IMG/VR virus record: IMGVR_UViG_3300025326_000061
Span: 1-47,693 of that record
Length of the DNA: 47,693 nucleotides
Reading direction: 5' to 3' (one strand)
Source of the DNA: a virus
The notes under the pieces are model-generated. The model was not told the origin of the DNA. It saw only the letters and a program-made list of their open reading frames with translations, and did not search any database. Positions within the stretch are counted from its first letter, which is position 1; every line of letters starts with the position of its first letter. A program made the translations under genes and the position numbers. Positions 4,145 through 29,719 of this stretch are shown one piece after another.

Positions 4145-5770
4145 TTACCATCCTCGCCATGCTCTAAGCTGCGCAACAACTGTATTGTAAGCAGTTGAAT
4201 CAGACATGCCCGTTCCTTTGTTTGCAAATACATATGTGCCGCTTGAAAGCAAAAGCACCATGCTATTTCGTGTAGGAAGGTAGATTACACCTCCTCGTCC
4301 AGTACTGCCGTCAAACACATAATTAACCTCAAGTTCCTCGCCTTGAGTATACCCCATCGAAGCTAATAATAGTTTCAGGCGTTGTGTTGTGCGTCCCGGA
4401 CGCACACCTATGTTATGCGCTTTGTTTATTGTAGTCGAAGCTGTAATAGTGAAGTAGTCACTGATATATTCTCCACGCAGCGCATAGTTCCTTACCGCAG
4501 TTACAGCAACACCACTGGTATCAGCTTCAGCTACGAACACTCTGTTCCTTGCTGTCATTCCCGGATTGGTGCCAGCAACAGCAGATGCACTTGTCACTTC
4601 ATACATCTTCATTTCAGGAATGGAAAAGAAACATACAAGTTGATTGGTTTCATTCACAGCATAAGCAGATGCTTTTGGAGTTTCAATAGCAGTAGCGGAA
4701 GCAGCACGTAGAAGCCGGAATTCATCAAGCCAACCATTAAACGGTGAGCTTACTTCATCACTAGCAATACCAAGATGAAGTTGTGTCACCTCGCAAATTC
4801 TAGCAGTAGAAGCTACAGAAATATCTTGTGTTTCTACTGCTCCATTTAGCGAAAGATAGACACGATAGGTGCCCGCGAGAGCGTCGAAAACTATTCTTAC
4901 TCTATGCCATTCCCCCGTAGCAAATGTCGTATTGGTTCCAGAAACATTGTTAGCAATGTCAAAAGACGTGCCTGTGGAAGATGCATAAAAGGCAAGTTTT
5001 TCTACTCCTGCCGTATCTTGCAACTGCACTAGCATACCAAAAGCCGCTGCGTTTCGGATGCTGATGAGACCGTATACAACACCATTGCCGGGACTTGCAT
5101 TGATTCTAAACCAGCAGGATACCTCCCATGAACCGTCACCTAAAGAAGTGATGCTGTTAGTCTTGGCAAAGTCGCCTGTCCCATCCAGCAACAAACTTGC
5201 ACTACCAAACTTCTGTTGTGCCGTATCAAGCTGTGCATTCCCCCCAAATGTCCAAGTATTTCCAAAGTCGTCAGTGGTGCTGGTAGCTGCATCAATGCCG
5301 TCGAAATGCAGCAAAAAATTTTCAGTGCGGTCGAAGACATATCCATATTGCGGAGGAACTAATGTTTTGTCCCAGGCAATGCTGCTGACACTTACATAGT
5401 CGGCATAAATATAACTCAGATTATTCGCACTCAATGCTGAAATTATTGGGTCAGTATCAGCAGTAAGCTGTGCATAACTATCAATGGCACCAACAGTTGC
5501 GTTAAATCCAGCAGCAAAGGCAAAAACAATTGCTTGTGCAGTAGCTGCAAGTTTAACTGTCAATCCAGTTCCTGCACTAAGCATGTTTGCATAGCCGCTG
5601 GAATTGACTACTCCCTGAAGAATGGTTTGCCTTGCGCCCGTAGATTTACCTGCACTCACAGCGAGAGTCTGAATATAGTCCTTCAGCTCACGAAATTCTT
5701 CCGCTGCTGAACCAGCGGGTCTGGATATTACAGGATCAGTAATATCTACTGGATTTGGAACATAAGCCAT
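4145..5770 (-). CDS. LamG-domain tail fibre protein
   Basis: This encodes 541 residues. The N-terminal 90 residues (helical, then an AGTGLTVKLAATAQAIVF block) look like a virion attachment region. Residues about 150-360 form a concanavalin-like LamG jelly roll, recognisable by NFLLHFDGIDAATSTTD, then FGSASLLLDGTGDFA, WEVSCWFRI, GEWHRVRIVFD and FNGWLDEFRLLR. The remainder is a separate beta domain. LamG domains in phage fibres bind carbohydrate, so cell-surface glycan recognition is the likely role. The gene is followed directly by the hub gene. Confidence 0.8.
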   Translation of the reverse strand: MAYVPNPVDITDPVISRPAGSAAEEFRELKDYIQTLAVSAGKSTGARQTILQGVVNSSGYANMLSAGTGLTVKLAATAQAIVFAFAAGFNATVGAIDSYAQLTADTDPIISALSANNLSYIYADYVSVSSIAWDKTLVPPQYGYVFDRTENFLLHFDGIDAATSTTDDFGNTWTFGGNAQLDTAQQKFGSASLLLDGTGDFAKTNSITSLGDGSWEVSCWFRINASPGNGVVYGLISIRNAAAFGMLVQLQDTAGVEKLAFYASSTGTSFDIANNVSGTNTTFATGEWHRVRIVFDALAGTYRVYLSLNGAVETQDISVASTARICEVTQLHLGIASDEVSSPFNGWLDEFRLLRAASATAIETPKASAYAVNETNQLVCFFSIPEMKMYEVTSASAVAGTNPGMTARNRVFVAEADTSGVAVTAVRNYALRGEYISDYFTITASTTINKAHNIGVRPGRTTQRLKLLLASMGYTQGEELEVNYVFDGSTGRGGVIYLPTRNSMVLLLSSGTYVFANKGTGMSDSTAYNTVVAQLRAWRGW

Positions 5771-14936: not shown

Positions 14937-15096
14937 GACGAAGTTGCCAGGAGGAGTGAGTTCATGCCGGAAGTTTACGCTTGCGGGCACGGATAGCACA
15001 GTGGGGATTGCTACTAACTATCATCACTAACTACCACTAACTACTACTACTAACCAAGAACTGAATCTAACAACTAATGGAAGGAATGAATGAAAA

Positions 15097-15821: not shown

Positions 15822-16538
15822 TTACAGTCCAACAAGTATTGGGTCTTTCAGTTCCAGATGTGCGACGATTTTGCCCTGCAACACCTTGAACATGCGACTC
15901 TCCTTGTTTTCACACAGTTCAACGACGTTCTTGAGTTGAACTGCGATCTTGGGGCTGAGTCCTGCTTTTGGTGCAGCGAGACTGAGAAATACCGATTTAT
16001 AGGATGTAACTGCATCAGCAAGCTTCTTGTTTTGCTCTGCTGTTGCATTGTCAGGCAGTTGCATCTTGTTCGCCAGCTTGAGAGTGAGAACATCAGCGAG
16101 TTCGTCATCGAACCAGCTTTCGATTCCATCCTTGGTCAGTTTGCCACTTGCGGCATTTTCAGCAGCGAAGCGAGAGAGTGCTTCGAAGTTGATCTGATCT
16201 TCATGGATGTTGATGATGTTCTTCGCAGGTGTTTCCGCGAGTGCTTCAAGAATAATATCGCGGATTGCTGCATCTTGCAGATCTTCGAGGGCTTGCTGCA
16301 TTGCATCTTTGATGATCTGCGGTGTGCAATCCAGCTTGATCTGCGGAATACTGATGCAGCGAGCATCGGGTTTCTTGTAGTTGGGGTTGTAGTCTGGATT
16401 CGGTTCACCATCGAATTCTTTCGTAGTGAACTTGGCCAGTGACTTGAAGGTAGTCACGCTGAGACGATGATCTGCTCTCGGCTTGTTTTTTCCAGTGTAG
16501 AGTTCGACGGTATGAAATGCTGTTTCATCGCGTTCCAT
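15822..16538 (-). CDS. Conserved-looking protein, distant paralogue of the 24187 gene
   Basis: This encodes 238 residues starting at ATG after GGAAAC. It is rich in Ala, Lys, Asp and Leu, mostly helical, with a charged N-terminus. Its C-terminal 150 residues share a layout with the 208-residue product of 24187-24813. Both have a K(K/R)P-initiated strand, then helix, then LTKDGIESWFDDELADV (here) versus GISKETWAEFFKDYLDVM, then a lysine-rich helical region ending in a G-K-I helix. Codon choice is C-ending, suggesting high expression. The function is unknown. An abundant early protein is my inference. Confidence 0.6.
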   Translation of the reverse strand: MERDETAFHTVELYTGKNKPRADHRLSVTTFKSLAKFTTKEFDGEPNPDYNPNYKKPDARCISIPQIKLDCTPQIIKDAMQQALEDLQDAAIRDIILEALAETPAKNIINIHEDQINFEALSRFAAENAASGKLTKDGIESWFDDELADVLTLKLANKMQLPDNATAEQNKKLADAVTSYKSVFLSLAAPKAGLSPKIAVQLKNVVELCENKESRMFKVLQGKIVAHLELKDPILVGL

Positions 16539-17234: not shown

Positions 17235-17293
17235 TTCGATCTCCTTAAGTGATACGGTTAGAATAGCATCGAGTCCTATCTACTGCAAGGGGG

Positions 17294-17321
17294 ATACTAC
17301 CACACAAAGCGAAAATGTCAA
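17294..17321 (-). promoter_or_regulatory. Leftward sigma70-like promoter
   Basis: In leftward sense TTGACA (17316-17321) and TAGTAT (17294-17299) are spaced by 16 bases. Transcription would start near 17287 and read the five small genes that begin at 17234. The two boxes lie in the left arm of the palindrome. Confidence 0.7.
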
Positions 17322-17348
17322 GGAGGAAAGCTCGCCTGATGGATTTAT

Positions 17349-17380
17349 TTTGCAGCAGCGAAGCTGCAATCTTTATTTTT
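17349..17380 (+). other. Terminator-like hairpin at the palindrome centre
   Basis: TTGCAGC (17350-17356) and GCTGCAA (17363-17369) form a perfect 7-bp stem around AGCGAA, followed by TCTTTATTTTT in rightward sense. It sits between the two divergent promoters, so it could block read-through from the left or act as a structural element of the palindrome. Confidence 0.45.
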
Positions 17381-17404
17381 GTCGCACAGGCTTTATCGTG
17401 CGAC
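17381..17404. repeat. Hairpin with GTCGCAC stem
   Basis: GTCGCAC (17381-17387) pairs with GTGCGAC (17398-17404) around a 10-nt loop. The same GTCGCA/TGCGAC stem recurs at 17789-17804 inside another hairpin, which suggests a repeated recognition element. Confidence 0.65.
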
Positions 17405-17440
17405 AAACTAACTGCAAAATATCATCAGGACGAGCGATCC

Positions 17441-17469
17441 TTGACATTGGAGCGACTGTGGTAGGATAA
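17441..17469 (+). promoter_or_regulatory. Rightward promoter in the right arm of the palindrome
   Basis: TTGACA (17441-17446) is followed by TAGGAT (17462-17467, spacing 15) or GGATAA (17464-17469, spacing 17). It mirrors the leftward promoter and shares its -35 block. No gene lies within 1 kb downstream, so its transcript would be a leader or non-coding RNA through the hairpin and iteron region. Confidence 0.5.
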
Positions 17470-17532
17470 CCCAGCAGTAGATAGGATAGGAAGAGGGATG
17501 AGGTAGGAAAAATGTGCGGTTCATTTTTCCGT

Positions 17533-17627
17533 AGGAGAAGGGAGCGGCTAGCAGCGTTAATTAGTAAGGACTCATCCGGCGAGTGAATACGAGCCGACAA
17601 TCAGTAGATCGCAAGCTCCCTTCTCCT
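17533..17627. repeat. 13-bp inverted repeat flanking a 69-bp segment
   Basis: AGGAGAAGGGAGC (17533-17545) and its exact reverse complement (17615-17627) enclose a segment that contains an ACTC/GAGT mini-hairpin. The arms are purine/pyrimidine-biased. Confidence 0.7.
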
Positions 17628-17718
17628 GAATCCAGCTTTCTTGATTGGCACTATCAAGCGGTTGCGAAGCAACTGATAAGATGTTGCTTTTAAGCCTCCG
17701 CGGCGTTTGAGCGGAAGC

Positions 17719-17755
17719 TATTTCTTTCTTTTTTTCTTTAAAAAAGAAAGAAATA
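17719..17755. repeat. A/T-rich perfect 16-bp inverted repeat
   Basis: Arms 17719-17734 and 17740-17755 are exact reverse complements around TCTTT. The arms contain only A/T apart from two C or G each. Such a sequence could act as a DNA-unwinding element or a bidirectional terminator, since both flanks hold T- or A-runs. Confidence 0.7.
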
Positions 17756-17776
17756 TGGGAAAGGAAGGAGGGGAGG

Positions 17777-17817
17777 CTCATTTTACGAGTCGCACCTATG
17801 CGACAAAGTAAAATGAG
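17777..17817. repeat. Nested hairpin (CTCATTTTAC outer stem, GTCGCA inner stem)
   Basis: Outer arms CTCATTTTAC (17777-17786) and GTAAAATGAG (17808-17817) are perfect. Inside lies a perfect GTCGCA/TGCGAC stem (17789-17804) with loop CCTA. The inner stem repeats that of 17381-17404. Confidence 0.75.
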
Positions 17818-17907
17818 GGGAGGAAACTAATGGGGAAAGGGTGGGATAGTTCTCCTCCCCCTCCAGCTTTTGATCTTGCTTTTGATTTTAAGAAGTTGTT
17901 TGGTATT

Positions 17908-17921
17908 CTCGCGGTAGCGAG
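17908..17921. repeat. Short perfect hairpin CTCGC-GGTA-GCGAG
   Basis: A 5-bp stem with a four-base loop lies between the AT-rich hairpins and the promoter at 17944. Together with GTTGC-GAA-GCAAC near 17661-17673 it continues the chain of small stem-loops in this region. Confidence 0.5.
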
Positions 17922-17943
17922 CGCCCGCAAATTGCCTAGTATC

Positions 17944-17972
17944 TTGACAAGTCAATAGATTAGCAGTGTAAT
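17944..17972 (+). promoter_or_regulatory. Rightward sigma70-like promoter before the iterons
   Basis: TTGACA (17944-17949) and TGTAAT (17967-17972) have the ideal 17-base spacing. The predicted start near 17979 is 38 bases before the first iteron, so its RNA would cross the origin-like element. It could supply a replication primer or be repressed by an iteron-binding protein. Confidence 0.65.
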
Positions 17973-18016
17973 AAGTTGATAGTTTCTATCTTAGTTGCTG
18001 ATCCCTTTGTGTAATC

Positions 18017-18329
18017 TGTGCTACTATGTGCTACGTTGTGCTACTATGTGCTATATGTGCAGAATGGGCCACCGGGCTGGAACAGCAACCTTCTGGGAGT
18101 TGTAGCTAGTAAGTAGGTGTATGGTAGTATCCAGTAGCTAGTATATAGTAGTAACTACTAGCAGCTTTGTGTTTCAACTTTAAACTATACCCCCAAATCA
18201 TACCCGTATAGATACTAATGTGCTGAGAGAGGAGAAACAGCCAGAAGGTTGCTGTTTGGAGGCGGGGGACTGGAACTCACACCTAGCACAATGTAGCACA
18301 ACATAGCACTGGATAGCACCAATAGCACA
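18017..18329. other. Candidate replication origin: opposed iteron arrays with nested inverted repeat
   Basis: TGTGCTA starts at 18017, 18027, 18037 and 18047, with a partial copy at 18056. Its reverse complement TAGCAC(A) starts at 18284, 18294, 18304, 18314 and 18323. Nine of ten units keep a pitch of 10 bp, one helical turn. Between the arrays an exact 16-bp inverted repeat (AACAGCAACCTTCTGG at 18081-18096, complement at 18241-18256) encloses 144 bp containing repeated TAGCTAGTA words and a GCTAGTA/TACTAGC dyad. This is the architecture of an iteron-controlled origin or partition site. I infer the function from structure alone. Confidence 0.7.
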
Positions 18330-18338
18330 GAGGGATTC

Positions 18339-18362
18339 CTCAGCATAGTAGAAACTGCTGAG
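18339..18362. repeat. 7-bp hairpin upstream of the early promoter
   Basis: CTCAGCA (18339-18345) pairs with TGCTGAG (18356-18362). It lies between the right iteron array and the promoter of the first early gene, and may bound the origin element or serve as an operator. Confidence 0.45.
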
Positions 18363-18401
18363 AACGTAAACAACTCAATACTTGCCAATGTTGCAAGGGG
18401 C

Positions 18402-18430
18402 TTGACACAGGAAAAGCAATATGCGATAAT
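18402..18430 (+). promoter_or_regulatory. Early rightward promoter, near consensus
   Basis: TTGACA (18402-18407), a 17-base spacer and GATAAT (18425-18430) form a near-perfect sigma70 promoter. It drives the operon beginning at 18500. Its strength and the absence of a phage RNA polymerase suggest early genes are read by the host enzyme. Confidence 0.85.
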
Positions 18431-18499
18431 CCTAAATCAGCCGTTTTTCTGCGAAGATTATGGCTGGCAATTTAATGTATAAACAGGAGATATAGTTCA

Positions 18500-19591
18500 G
18501 TGAAGATAACCTGTCAGTATAGCGGTATAACATATGATGTTACAGGCTTCGGCTCAACATCATTAACCTATATCCATCCAATATTCACAGCAGAAACTAA
18601 GTGGTTACTGTCGCGGATGGGAACTTGGGCCGCACAGAAATACACAGAAGAAGAATCAAAGCTGTTATTCTTGGCTCTTCTTCACAGCACAGAACTCGTT
18701 GAATTTCGACATGCTGCGTATCCAGAGAATAACACTGTGCAACTTAACATCGAACCTCTTGCTCGCTTCATCGGTTGGTCTAGTGGTCTTTCTAGAGCAG
18801 CAATAGTTCTTCCTAAATTTGTTATCCAACACGATAACAGAAAGCTGGAAAATATTCGTTATTGGATTCGAACTTGGCAAGATGCAAGAAAAGCATTTGA
18901 AGATGGATACGTTAAATATGAACGGGATAAGAAACTGCACGATAAGGAAGTTGCTCTCGAACGCTTAATAAGGAACAGTGCAAAGCAAGTTCAAGATTAT
19001 GCTGGATTACTAGCAACTTGGGCAATGCAAGCGGGAACAGCTCCAAAGGCTCTCCATGACTACTGGCGTTCTTTATTCTGCCTCAAAGGTATCAGCATCT
19101 ATAATGCAAAGCAGATTGATCTTGAAGAACTACTAGAACACATGGAAGAGCACCTTGAGCACGGTAGCATATATAGCCATGCAACATTAACGCATCTCCG
19201 AACACTGGTTAAGAAGAATAAAGCTGGCCTCAACTACGGACTCGGTATTACTGATGAAGAGTTTAATGTTCTAGAAGCTTCTCCTTTCCGTATTGTTGAA
19301 GGCAGCGTTGAAGAACACAACATGGAAGTTATTATAGCTTCTGCTCCTAATGAGGAACCGCAAGCTAATAATTATCCAAGCAGAGTAGCATACTTAAGAG
19401 CAAAAGCTGCTTGGGGATTAGCACAACGAGCTGCTCAATATGCTGCTATATTTACGCAGCAGGTTGAAGAAGAGACAAAGAAAGAAGATACAGAAGCTGC
19501 CGAACTCAGCTCAGATGATATAACAACTGAAGAACCAGATGATACAACAACTCAAGCAAGACTTATTTCCGAAGGAGCAAGTGATGAGTAA
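18500..19591 (+). CDS. First early gene, unknown; possible initiator or regulator
   Basis: This encodes 363 residues from GTG 18500, with AGGAG ten bases upstream. A beta-like N-terminus (KITCQYSGITYDV) is followed by a helical core containing KLLFLALLHSTELVEFRHAA, a long charged helical region, and an acidic, Thr-rich tail from about residue 320. It has no recognised enzyme motif. It is the first gene after the origin-like element and the strong early promoter, and is coupled to the next gene by an ATGAGTAA overlap. A replication initiator binding the iterons is one hypothesis based only on position. Confidence 0.65.
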   Translation: MKITCQYSGITYDVTGFGSTSLTYIHPIFTAETKWLLSRMGTWAAQKYTEEESKLLFLALLHSTELVEFRHAAYPENNTVQLNIEPLARFIGWSSGLSRAAIVLPKFVIQHDNRKLENIRYWIRTWQDARKAFEDGYVKYERDKKLHDKEVALERLIRNSAKQVQDYAGLLATWAMQAGTAPKALHDYWRSLFCLKGISIYNAKQIDLEELLEHMEEHLEHGSIYSHATLTHLRTLVKKNKAGLNYGLGITDEEFNVLEASPFRIVEGSVEEHNMEVIIASAPNEEPQANNYPSRVAYLRAKAAWGLAQRAAQYAAIFTQQVEEETKKEDTEAAELSSDDITTEEPDDTTTQARLISEGASDE

Positions 19592-19936: not shown

Positions 19937-22321
19937 ATGAAGCGCATAACAGAAGATAGAGTTCAACAGCTACTTGCAGAAGCTCGCAAGAAACTAGCTG
20001 ATTCTGCTCCAGCATCTCCAGCAGTAGCAGCTATCGACAGGATAGCTGCTGAACGTGCTACTGGCGTAGATATTGATTTAGCTTCTGCTGGCATTGATAT
20101 TCAACATAGCGAAGTAGTAGAACAAATTGCTGAACTTGTTTCTGCCTTCGCAGATAAACCAAGGCCAGAAGCAGAAACTCCCAAGCATCCGCATAAGATT
20201 CTAGGTGTTGCTCGTGATGATATTATCCTTAATCCAAAGCAGCAAAGCTTCGCTGATCGTGGAGCAAAAGGAGAAGATATTGTTCTCATAGGGGCTGCTG
20301 GAACTGGCAAGACTACTTGCCAACGTTGGCTTGGGAAGAAGCTGATAACAGATGGTCGTATTAAGCTTCTTTCTCAATCTACCAAGTGGCTGCAAGCGGG
20401 GAAGCATGGTATTGCAATTTGCAGCTTTACCAATAAAGCTGTAAATAACATTCGTCATGCTCTTCCAGATGCAATCAAGTCTCATGCATTAACTATCCAT
20501 AAACTACTGGAATTTGCTCCAGTCTGGTATGAGGTAGAGAATCCTGAGAAGCCGGGAGAGATGAAGAAAACAATGCGCTTTGAACCACAGCGCAGCAAGT
20601 ATAATCCTCTTCCTTCTGGACTCGCACTTATTATCTTTGAAGAAAGTAGCATGGTAAGTGTTGAACTCCATGATATGCTACTGGATGCTTGTCCCCACAA
20701 GCCGCAACTCATATATCTCGGAGACATCCAGCAACTTCCTCCAGTATTCGGTTCTGCCATCTTGGGCTTCAAGATGCTGGAACTTCCAGTCATCGAGCTA
20801 ACCGAGGTTTACCGGCAAGCTCTCAACTCTCCTATTATCTCTCTTGCTTGGAAGATTCTTGCAGGAGATCCCAAGACGTTCAACAGCAAATCTAAATCAG
20901 TTAAGCTTCTTCATCCAATACTTAAGAAGGAAGTTGATCGCAAGATCATTCCTGCATTGGATGCGCTTAGCTTGGAGAATGAAGATGGAAAGGTTATCTT
21001 CCAACCCTGGCAGAAACAACTTAGTGCAGATCATGGTCTCATCACACTTACCAAACAGTTCTGTGAATGGTCTGACAGTGGATACTACAATTTCAACGAC
21101 GATATCATCCTCTGCCCATTCAACGTCTCGTTTGGAACTGTGGAGATTAACAAAGGAATCTCACAACATCTTGGCAGAAAGCGGAAAGCAACTATCCACG
21201 AAGTGGTGGCTGGTTACAATAAGCATTATCTTGCCGAAGGTGACAGAGTTCTTTATGAGAAGGAAGATGCAACAATCATTAAGATCAGTAGAAATGGAGA
21301 ATACATGGGCAAAGCTGCTCAATCTCCATCCGAGTATCTCGATAGATGGGGACATCTACGGACTGAAGATATGGATGCAGATGCAACTACCAAGATGGAA
21401 CAGGAAACCGATGAAGGTAAAGAGTTTGATGTTGAAGCTATAGATAAGTATTTGGAACTAGCAGCATCTGAAGCAGAGGATAGAGTTACTGCTGCAAGTC
21501 ATATGATTGATCTTATTATCGCAGCTACTGGCGAAGAAGTAACCATTGATACTGCCGCTGAAGTCAATAAACTGCTCGGTGGATACTGCATTACAATCCA
21601 TAAAGCACAAGGGTCTGAATGGGACAAGGTATTCCTCGTTCTCCATAACAGCCATGCCACGATGAATCAACGTGAACTGCTGTATACTGCTGTAACACGA
21701 GCAAAGAAGTATCTACATATTATCTGCGAACCCAACACCTTCGAGCGCGGAGTAACATCGCAGAAGATCAAAGGTAATACCCTTGCCGAGAAAGCTGAAT
21801 GGTTTAAGGGTAAACTGGAAGAACGAGAGAGGTTGCTGCTTGAGAAACGCAAGATGCAGCCTGCTGATGATCCAATCAAGATAGCTTTTAATCTTGTTCC
21901 CGAATGGGATACTCTGGCGCGGGACAGCGTTGCACACTGGTGGAAGGTAGCAACCAAGTGGTATCCACAGATAGCAACAATGCCTGTTCCTACCTTCGGT
22001 TGGAAGATTAAAGGTTCCGCTGCTGGAACAGCTAACTATGCAACGAATGAAATCACTTGCAGCCCAGTATATCTGCATCTTGATCCCAATGACATGATAG
22101 CAGATACCATTCCGCACGAAGTTGCCCATCATGTTGCTTTCCGCATCTATAAAGAACGAGGACATGGTGGACGCTGGATAGAAGTAATGAAACACTTTGG
22201 CCGTAATCCAATAGCAAGCAAGTATCATGATCTTGGTAAGCTGCCTGCTGCTCTCAGAAAAGTTCTGGAGGATAGCAAGCAGAATCTTGTTAAACAGGAA
22301 GATGAAGAGGAGAAAGATTAA
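19937..22321 (+). CDS. SF1 (RecD/Dda-like) helicase fused to SprT-like zinc metalloprotease
   Basis: This encodes 794 residues. After a helical N-terminus comes an SF1 helicase core: Walker A GAAGTGKT (119-126), motif II LIIFEESSM (231-239), motif III LGDIQQLPPV (261-270), motif IV-like ELTEVYRQ (287-294), motif V region TIHKAQGSEWDKVFL (553-567) and motif VI LLYTAVTRAKK (581-591). The C-terminal about 140 residues match the SprT-like protease core, with zinc motif HEVAH (727-731) and third ligand H743 in RGHGGRW. SprT/SPRTN proteases cut proteins crosslinked to DNA. A coupled helicase-protease could clear protein roadblocks ahead of the phage fork. The usual zinc ribbon after the SprT core is absent. 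Confidence 0.85.
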   Translation: MKRITEDRVQQLLAEARKKLADSAPASPAVAAIDRIAAERATGVDIDLASAGIDIQHSEVVEQIAELVSAFADKPRPEAETPKHPHKILGVARDDIILNPKQQSFADRGAKGEDIVLIGAAGTGKTTCQRWLGKKLITDGRIKLLSQSTKWLQAGKHGIAICSFTNKAVNNIRHALPDAIKSHALTIHKLLEFAPVWYEVENPEKPGEMKKTMRFEPQRSKYNPLPSGLALIIFEESSMVSVELHDMLLDACPHKPQLIYLGDIQQLPPVFGSAILGFKMLELPVIELTEVYRQALNSPIISLAWKILAGDPKTFNSKSKSVKLLHPILKKEVDRKIIPALDALSLENEDGKVIFQPWQKQLSADHGLITLTKQFCEWSDSGYYNFNDDIILCPFNVSFGTVEINKGISQHLGRKRKATIHEVVAGYNKHYLAEGDRVLYEKEDATIIKISRNGEYMGKAAQSPSEYLDRWGHLRTEDMDADATTKMEQETDEGKEFDVEAIDKYLELAASEAEDRVTAASHMIDLIIAATGEEVTIDTAAEVNKLLGGYCITIHKAQGSEWDKVFLVLHNSHATMNQRELLYTAVTRAKKYLHIICEPNTFERGVTSQKIKGNTLAEKAEWFKGKLEERERLLLEKRKMQPADDPIKIAFNLVPEWDTLARDSVAHWWKVATKWYPQIATMPVPTFGWKIKGSAAGTANYATNEITCSPVYLHLDPNDMIADTIPHEVAHHVAFRIYKERGHGGRWIEVMKHFGRNPIASKYHDLGKLPAALRKVLEDSKQNLVKQEDEEEKD

Positions 22322-29197: not shown

Positions 29198-29257
29198 CTG
29201 CTGTAGCACAAAGCTACATTCATTCACTCAACGCTTCATTCACTCGGAAGGTGTCTC

Positions 29258-29719
29258 ATGAGCACACAAGCTCAGCAACAAGCTGCAAACCTCGACTTCT
29301 CTATTCTCGACGGTTCACTGGATGATATTGAAGACTTGCCAGGTTTCCTGGTATTCCCCAGTGGTGCATATCTTGTTGAGTTGCATCAAGGACTCAACAA
29401 GAAAGCCATTGCCAACCATCCTGCGATTGAAATGGCGATGAAGTGCATCGAGGTGAAGGAACTGGCAGATCCGAACGACGCAGAGAAACAGCCGAAGGTC
29501 GGAGATGTCTGCACTATTGCCTTTATGCTCGACAACGAGTTCGGTCGTGGGAATCTGAAGAAGGTTCTCGAACCGATTGGTGAAAGGCTCGGTATCAAGA
29601 GCAATCAGCAAATCGTTGATGCCAGCAAAGGTATCAAAGCTCTCGTTGTAATCAAGAAAACAGAGAACAAAGAGAAGCAGAAGGAATACGCGAATCTTCT
29701 CAGGTTCGTTCCAGTCTAA
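29258..29719 (+). CDS. Possible ssDNA-binding protein (highly expressed)
   Basis: This encodes 153 residues. A disordered acidic N-terminus is followed by a beta-rich region (GFLVFPSGAYLVELHQGL, MKCIEVKELADP, VGDVCTIAFMLDNEFGRG) that reads like an OB-type or DUF669-like fold of phage ssDNA-binding proteins. Codon use is C-ending and AAG-biased as in the MCP gene. It is followed by a strong terminator. It lies with the recombinase and polymerase genes, which fits an abundant ssDNA-binding protein. No sequence signature proves it. Confidence 0.55.
   Translation: MSTQAQQQAANLDFSILDGSLDDIEDLPGFLVFPSGAYLVELHQGLNKKAIANHPAIEMAMKCIEVKELADPNDAEKQPKVGDVCTIAFMLDNEFGRGNLKKVLEPIGERLGIKSNQQIVDASKGIKALVVIKKTENKEKQKEYANLLRFVPV

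Follow-up and report, generated by a model that had tools for sequence, protein, structure and literature searches.

Origins of replication pair binding sites for an initiator protein with an AT-rich unwinding element, and in Escherichia coli oriC the weak DnaA sites form two phased, oppositely oriented arrays (PMC5043065). The origins of iteron plasmids and of phage lambda combine tandem, replicon-specific repeats with an AT-rich stretch, an adjoining replication gene and an overlapping promoter, the lambda iterons being themselves inverted repeats (PMC5043065). The packaging (pac) sites of phages P1 and SPP1, close to the terminase genes, likewise have a central region with a cluster of short repeats on each side, and in SPP1 the repeats in pacL and pacR flank the region that is cut (PMC4737164). 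Here, we describe an element of similar design, 336 bp long (positions 18001-18336), in a complete viral contig from IMG/VR (IMGVR_UViG_3300025326_000061; 47,693 bp, hereafter the window). It consists of two arrays of a short word facing each other across an easily melted centre and is located in a 1.3-kb non-coding gap separating two transcription units. With slightly better than even confidence, we interpret this element as the replication origin of the phage.

Like oriC, the element combines two opposed arrays of short, putative initiator sites with an AT-rich segment. In contrast to oriC, it has its unstable segment between the two arrays, uses a different word in each lineage, spaces the copies by 8 bp in most cases and has no gene for a DnaA-like protein in its vicinity. 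Compared with iteron plasmids and the lambda origin, the words are short, arranged in two facing blocks and, in the relatives, mostly unphased. The closest counterparts are found in the Fredfastierviridae (PaP2, 119X, PaMx41 and Shea), which share the genome plan and carry facing CAAGGT arrays in the same place, whereas the repeat word of the window is different and protein identity is 27-35%. The family A polymerase and the large terminase of the window are related (27-37% identity) to those of Pseudomonas phages PaP2, 119X and PaMx41, and the same kinship extends to Polaromonas phage Tiera, EBPR podovirus 3 and Aeromonas phage P5. Judging from these comparisons, the virus is a relative of the Fredfastierviridae podoviruses with the same gene order, too distant at this level of identity to be a member of a named genus.

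Two facing arrays and their conservation

The two arms of the element are as follows.

18001-18059, plus strand: left arm, with inward-facing GTGCTA repeats at 18017, 18027, 18037 and 18047 and an outer ATCCC
18278-18336, minus strand: right arm, with inward-facing TAGCAC repeats at 18284, 18294, 18304, 18314 and 18323 and an outer GGGAT

A first-pass annotation of the window had reported exact TGTGCTA heptamers at the 4 left-arm positions, which we confirmed, and 5 TAGCACA copies in the right arm, of which those at 18284, 18294 and 18323 are exact, whereas 18304 reads TAGCACT and 18314 reads TAGCACC (6 of 7 letters each). The invariant core, present in 9 copies over both arms, is GTGCTA. The steps are 10 bp, as reported, with the single exception of the 9 bp between 18314 and 18323, and the left arm is edged by two degenerate copies, one at 18008 (TGTGTAA) and one at 18056 (TGTGCAG), each 9 bp off the nearest copy. 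Together, the arms form a 59-nt inverted repeat at 76% identity. Of the 26 GTGCTA sites in the window, 9 fall inside the 336 bp, a concentration not matched in any of 20,000 random placements. The opposed-array score was 5+5 in the window; 27 of 30 block-shuffled windows lacked any opposed array, and the best score among them was 6. The arrays are therefore real and far above chance. The total of 11 exact heptamers in the window is within chance expectation (mean 7), and the lone TAGCACA at 29204 is, as had been suspected, a coincidence, with further isolated exact copies at 14994, 19419 and 27347.

To the right of the element lies a gene starting at position 18500, and relatives of its product are encoded in 58 viral contigs. 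In most relatives with enough upstream DNA, two tandem arrays, 150-430 bp apart, face inward at a conserved location, with the terminase genes on one side and the early replication genes on the other. The array word is lineage-specific (TGTGNNA, AGACYG, TTGACT, ATCCTG, ACCAA), yet within a genome it is common to both arms. The automatic array finder missed the arrays of L040, L053 and L063, which are clear by eye, and may have included weak ones in L059 and L066. Among the named phages, CAAGGT arrays face ACCTTG arrays in PaP2, 119X, PaMx41, PaMx32, FBPa48 and Neko, 119X and Neko having one additional stretch in their right arrays; an opposed array was searched for in P5, and none was found. 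Searches of the named phages with the element (as DNA) and with the 18500 product (tblastn) gave no match. Thus, the inward orientation and the architecture of the element persist in relatives, whereas its letters and spacing change: at the level of letters the sequence at this position is unrelated, at the level of architecture it is not.

The spacing bears on another point of the first-pass annotation, in which copies on one face of the helix were taken to imply cooperative binding of one protein from both sides. A period of 8 bp scores best in 27 of the 33 loci analyzed and one of 9 bp in two, and a best period of 10 bp is limited to the window, its sister phage L004 and, marginally, L033; in PaP2 the spacing is mostly 10 bp. 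Phasing fits the window, but not the group, so that placement on a single helix face appears not to be essential.

Comparison with L004, in which the homologue of the 18500 product is 91% identical, showed that the arms are far better preserved than their surroundings: 116 of 118 arm positions are identical (98%; left arm, 59 of 59; right arm, 57 of 59), compared with 621 of 746 (83%) in the remaining non-coding DNA (P=9e-7). When the arms of the window are compared with each other, 14 of 59 positions differ, none of them among the 24 core letters and all 14 among the 35 other positions (P=3e-4). Because the core words agree between the arms while the spacers differ, the arms look like repeated binding sites of one protein rather than the two sides of a stem or hairpin. 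The alternative, that the inverted repeat works as a folded RNA or a cruciform, draws on the observation that the 336-nt strand folds far better than shuffled sequences (z ~ -11). However, pairing fails in the spacers while the core words are retained, the inner 16-bp inverted repeat described below is not kept in L004, and in many relatives the arms consist of short repeats that show C/T differences. Given the location of the mismatches in the spacers, this reading was set aside, and we consider it very unlikely.

A melting-prone centre and the adjacent promoters

Between the arms, the following features were recognized.

18060-18277, no strand: centre, the segment between the arms, whose counterparts in the family hold a low-stability stretch and shared motifs
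18081-18096, plus strand: left half of an exact 16-bp inverted repeat (partner, 18241-18256)
18241-18256, minus strand: right half of the same repeat (partner, 18081-18096)
18183-18217, plus strand: core-like conserved stretch ACTATACCCCCAAATCATACCCGTATAGATA, with counterparts TTTTTTAG-TGGGGGTATA-AATATACC mid-element in relatives

The exact 16-bp inverted repeat enclosing 144 bp had been noted before and was found to be part of a 21-nt repeat at 90% identity; it is weakly conserved, L004 keeping 13 of the 16 pairs. The segments between the arms have in common the motifs TACCCC and TATAGATA, and many also contain a TTTTTTAGTGGGGGTATA core. In 33 of 38 loci, the least stable 40-mer of the centre ranks in the lowest 10% of same-length segments of its own locus, and it lies at a relative position of 0.43 +/- 0.11 across the centre. 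Compared at equal length with a control gap, that between the genes for the small terminase and a protein that we call Lp (see below), the centre was the weaker in 23 of 23 loci (P=2e-7). An AT-rich, easily melted stretch thus adjoins the arrays across the family, the window taken alone being borderline.

The phage attachment site, attP, has a comparable layout, with short direct repeats in opposed orientation on either side of a conserved asymmetric core; a tyrosine integrase would bind arm-type sites flanking that core. However, no integrase or recombinase was found among the main genes with Pfam and PHROGs, a scan that did not cover small open reading frames, and the PaP2-like phage Shea is maintained without integration (PMC13348215), so that an attachment site appears scarcely credible.

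Two promoter-like sequences flank the arms.

17944-17972, plus strand: promoter-like TTGACA-17-TGTAAT, pointing into the left arm; read by eye, with the -35 retained in L004
18402-18430, plus strand: early promoter-like TTGACA-17-GATAAT from the promoter scan, 65 bp past the right arm and upstream of the 18500 gene

The first of these, a promoter at 17944 aimed into the arrays, had been proposed by the first-pass annotation and is indeed present, although the promoter scan did not list it; the 18402 site is the stronger of the two. Sites like that at 18402 follow the right arm in L004, L032 and L033, and many relatives have a TTGACA-type promoter directly adjoining the right arm. These arrangements raise the possibility that the element is an operator of the early operon, in which a phage regulator bound to both arms would loop the DNA and repress or activate the early promoter without any involvement in replication. 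In many relatives, the TTGACA -35 lies ~35 bp before the right arm, so that the transcription start falls at this arm, and in the window promoters flank the arms on both sides. In the clade of the window, by contrast, the nearest promoter is 46-119 bp past the right arm; an operator has no need for a conserved melting-prone centre, and no repressor-like protein was identified among the scanned genes. We regard such an operator as a minor but real possibility.

A candidate origin and its candidate initiators

The genes relevant to the function of the element are the following.

18500-19591, plus strand: 363-aa protein of the uncharacterised family P0001, found in 58 viral contigs; candidate initiator and array binder
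15822-16538, minus strand: 238-aa protein Lp, between the small terminase and the left arm, conserved in 42 loci
19937-22321, plus strand: Dda/RecD-like helicase with a SprT-like C-terminal domain (Pfam and PHROG scans), the next conserved replication gene

From the element, the terminase and structural genes run leftward; rightward, beginning with the 18500 gene, run genes for a helicase, an exonuclease, a Sak4-like protein, a nucleotide kinase, a polymerase and a primase. The element is thus positioned at the start of the replication operon, which favours an origin, as does the presence of arrays of a replicon-specific short word in non-coding DNA, typical of iteron-type origins. We infer that replication starts here. 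A phage-encoded initiator would bind the 6-7-bp words of both arms as inward-facing oligomers, and the resulting strain would open the AT-rich centre, which could then be taken by the helicase, primase-helicase and family A polymerase whose genes follow on the right. The first candidate for such an initiator is the 18500 product and the second is Lp. Given the TTGACA promoter that adjoins the right arm in many of the relatives, binding of the initiator probably also autoregulates early transcription. The original proposal of an origin-like element with facing arrays for one protein is supported by the match of the cores between the arms, the recurring plan and the melting-prone centre; a need for a single helix face is not supported.

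Several observations weigh against an origin. The least stable 40-mer of the window (~18120-18160) is only moderately unusual when the window is considered alone (P=0.09). The 8-bp spacing that prevails in the loci departs from the helical phase of iteron-type repeats and is unusual, given that plasmid iterons are generally in phase. The 18500 product, encoded beside the arrays, is conserved but has no recognisable family or initiator fold. GC skew points neither way: relatives whose left gene is on the plus strand show a flip of the fourfold-site skew at the array, with a sign opposite to that of a usual origin, and no such flip is seen at the array in the window, PaP2, Tiera and P5. Finally, the array word requires 7 changes on the tree of the 18500 product, 7 on that of Lp and 8 on that of the small terminase, nearly equal fits that do not single out the binding protein. 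Because gene orientation confounds it in the window, the GC-skew minimum, which had been considered as a marker of the origin, was dropped.

The position of the terminase genes, 1.3-3 kb leftward, suggests another function, that of a pac site, with the arms bound by the small terminase and the genome cut in the interval separating the arms, as in P1 and SPP1. In PaP2 and 119X, which are separate records, the deposited ends meet between the arms at an almost identical base, and the Shea reads suggest terminally redundant ends (PMC13348215). Unlike the P1 and SPP1 sites, however, the element is at the head of the early operon and has a melting-prone centre, which packaging does not require. Nor does it lie within or beside the small terminase gene, from which it is separated in most loci not only by the 1.3-3 kb but also by the conserved Lp gene. 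Furthermore, other PaP2-like records continue across the junction, and the ends of near-complete contigs of relatives are scattered over the genome. A pac site is therefore rather unlikely.

With its tandem 8-11-bp repeats, the element is similar to ParR/parC and omega/parS sites, which could indicate a partition site or centromere for an episomal state. Such a state exists in Shea, a phage 98.6% identical to PaP2, which is maintained as an episome (PMC13348215). However, no ParA-, ParM- or TubZ-type protein, nor a partition adaptor, was found among the main replication and structural genes scanned, small open reading frames not being included, and we hold a partition function to be highly improbable. 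The episome of Shea does imply that the PaP2-like group can maintain itself as a replicon, without proving that the element drives it.

Both candidate initiators are orphans. Pfam, PHROG, PDB-sequence and PDB-fold searches with the 18500 product yielded no relative, and its structural model (mean predicted local distance difference test score, 69.5) had no PDB neighbour below E ~0.9. Likewise, Lp had no match in Pfam, PHROG and PDB searches, and its model (84.6) had no PDB neighbour below the same value. In PaP2, Tiera and EBPR podovirus 3, the proteins encoded at the corresponding position share with the 18500 product only a C-x-x-[ST]-G...HP motif, whereas the P5 counterpart is backed by profile comparison at 94%. 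In L010 (~4660-4740) and L009, a tRNA-Leu-like sequence directly precedes the homologue of this gene. The Lp gene is on the plus strand in 37 loci, usually ending ~80 bp from the arm, and on the minus strand in the clade of the window, a difference that amounts to a one-gene inversion beside the element.

Neighbouring features and implications

Other features of the region were recorded alongside the element. In L034-L088, the fourfold-site GC skew on the coding strand is +0.17 for the plus-strand gene left of the array and -0.42 for the genes to the right, a compositional border at the array. The SprT-like (metalloprotease-like) domain of the 19937-22321 helicase suggests a helicase-protease fusion, and the 153-aa product of 29258-29719, for which there was no PHROG match, resembles by eye a single-stranded-DNA-binding protein. 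Within the non-coding gap, a second, separate inverted repeat (17274-17486) folds as a single long hairpin (-113 kcal/mol, z=-13). It is strongly conserved in L004, its arms carry outward-facing TTGACA promoter-like sites, and among the scanned loci it was seen only in the window and L004; it is possibly a non-coding RNA or a divergent control region. In the same gap, TATTTCTTTCTTTTTT/AAAAAAGAAAGAAATA form a near-perfect inverted repeat around a 5-nt loop (17719-17755), which is also kept in L004. Rfam and tRNA scans of the window returned nothing.

We found no earlier description of the element in this group in the open-licence part of PubMed Central, subscription papers being outside the search. 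Initiator arrays at origins are already known, but the facing, variably spaced arrangement together with orphan proteins is unusual. We therefore tentatively raise the possibility of a new class of phage origins, unphased and built of two blocks, in which an initiator family of no known fold, that of the 18500 product, would act on facing words spaced by 8-10 bp around an unwinding centre, the word being replaced jointly in both blocks.

If the element is an origin, the place where replication starts would become known for a large and mostly uncultivated group of podoviruses, along with a candidate initiator that belongs to a family of orphan proteins. Two blocks of initiator sites would then face each other across an unwinding element while tolerating spacings of 8, 9 and 10 bp. 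The variety of words and spacings among the relatives represents a ready-made set for decoding how the initiator reads its sites, and the element may explain the episomal persistence of PaP2-like phages.
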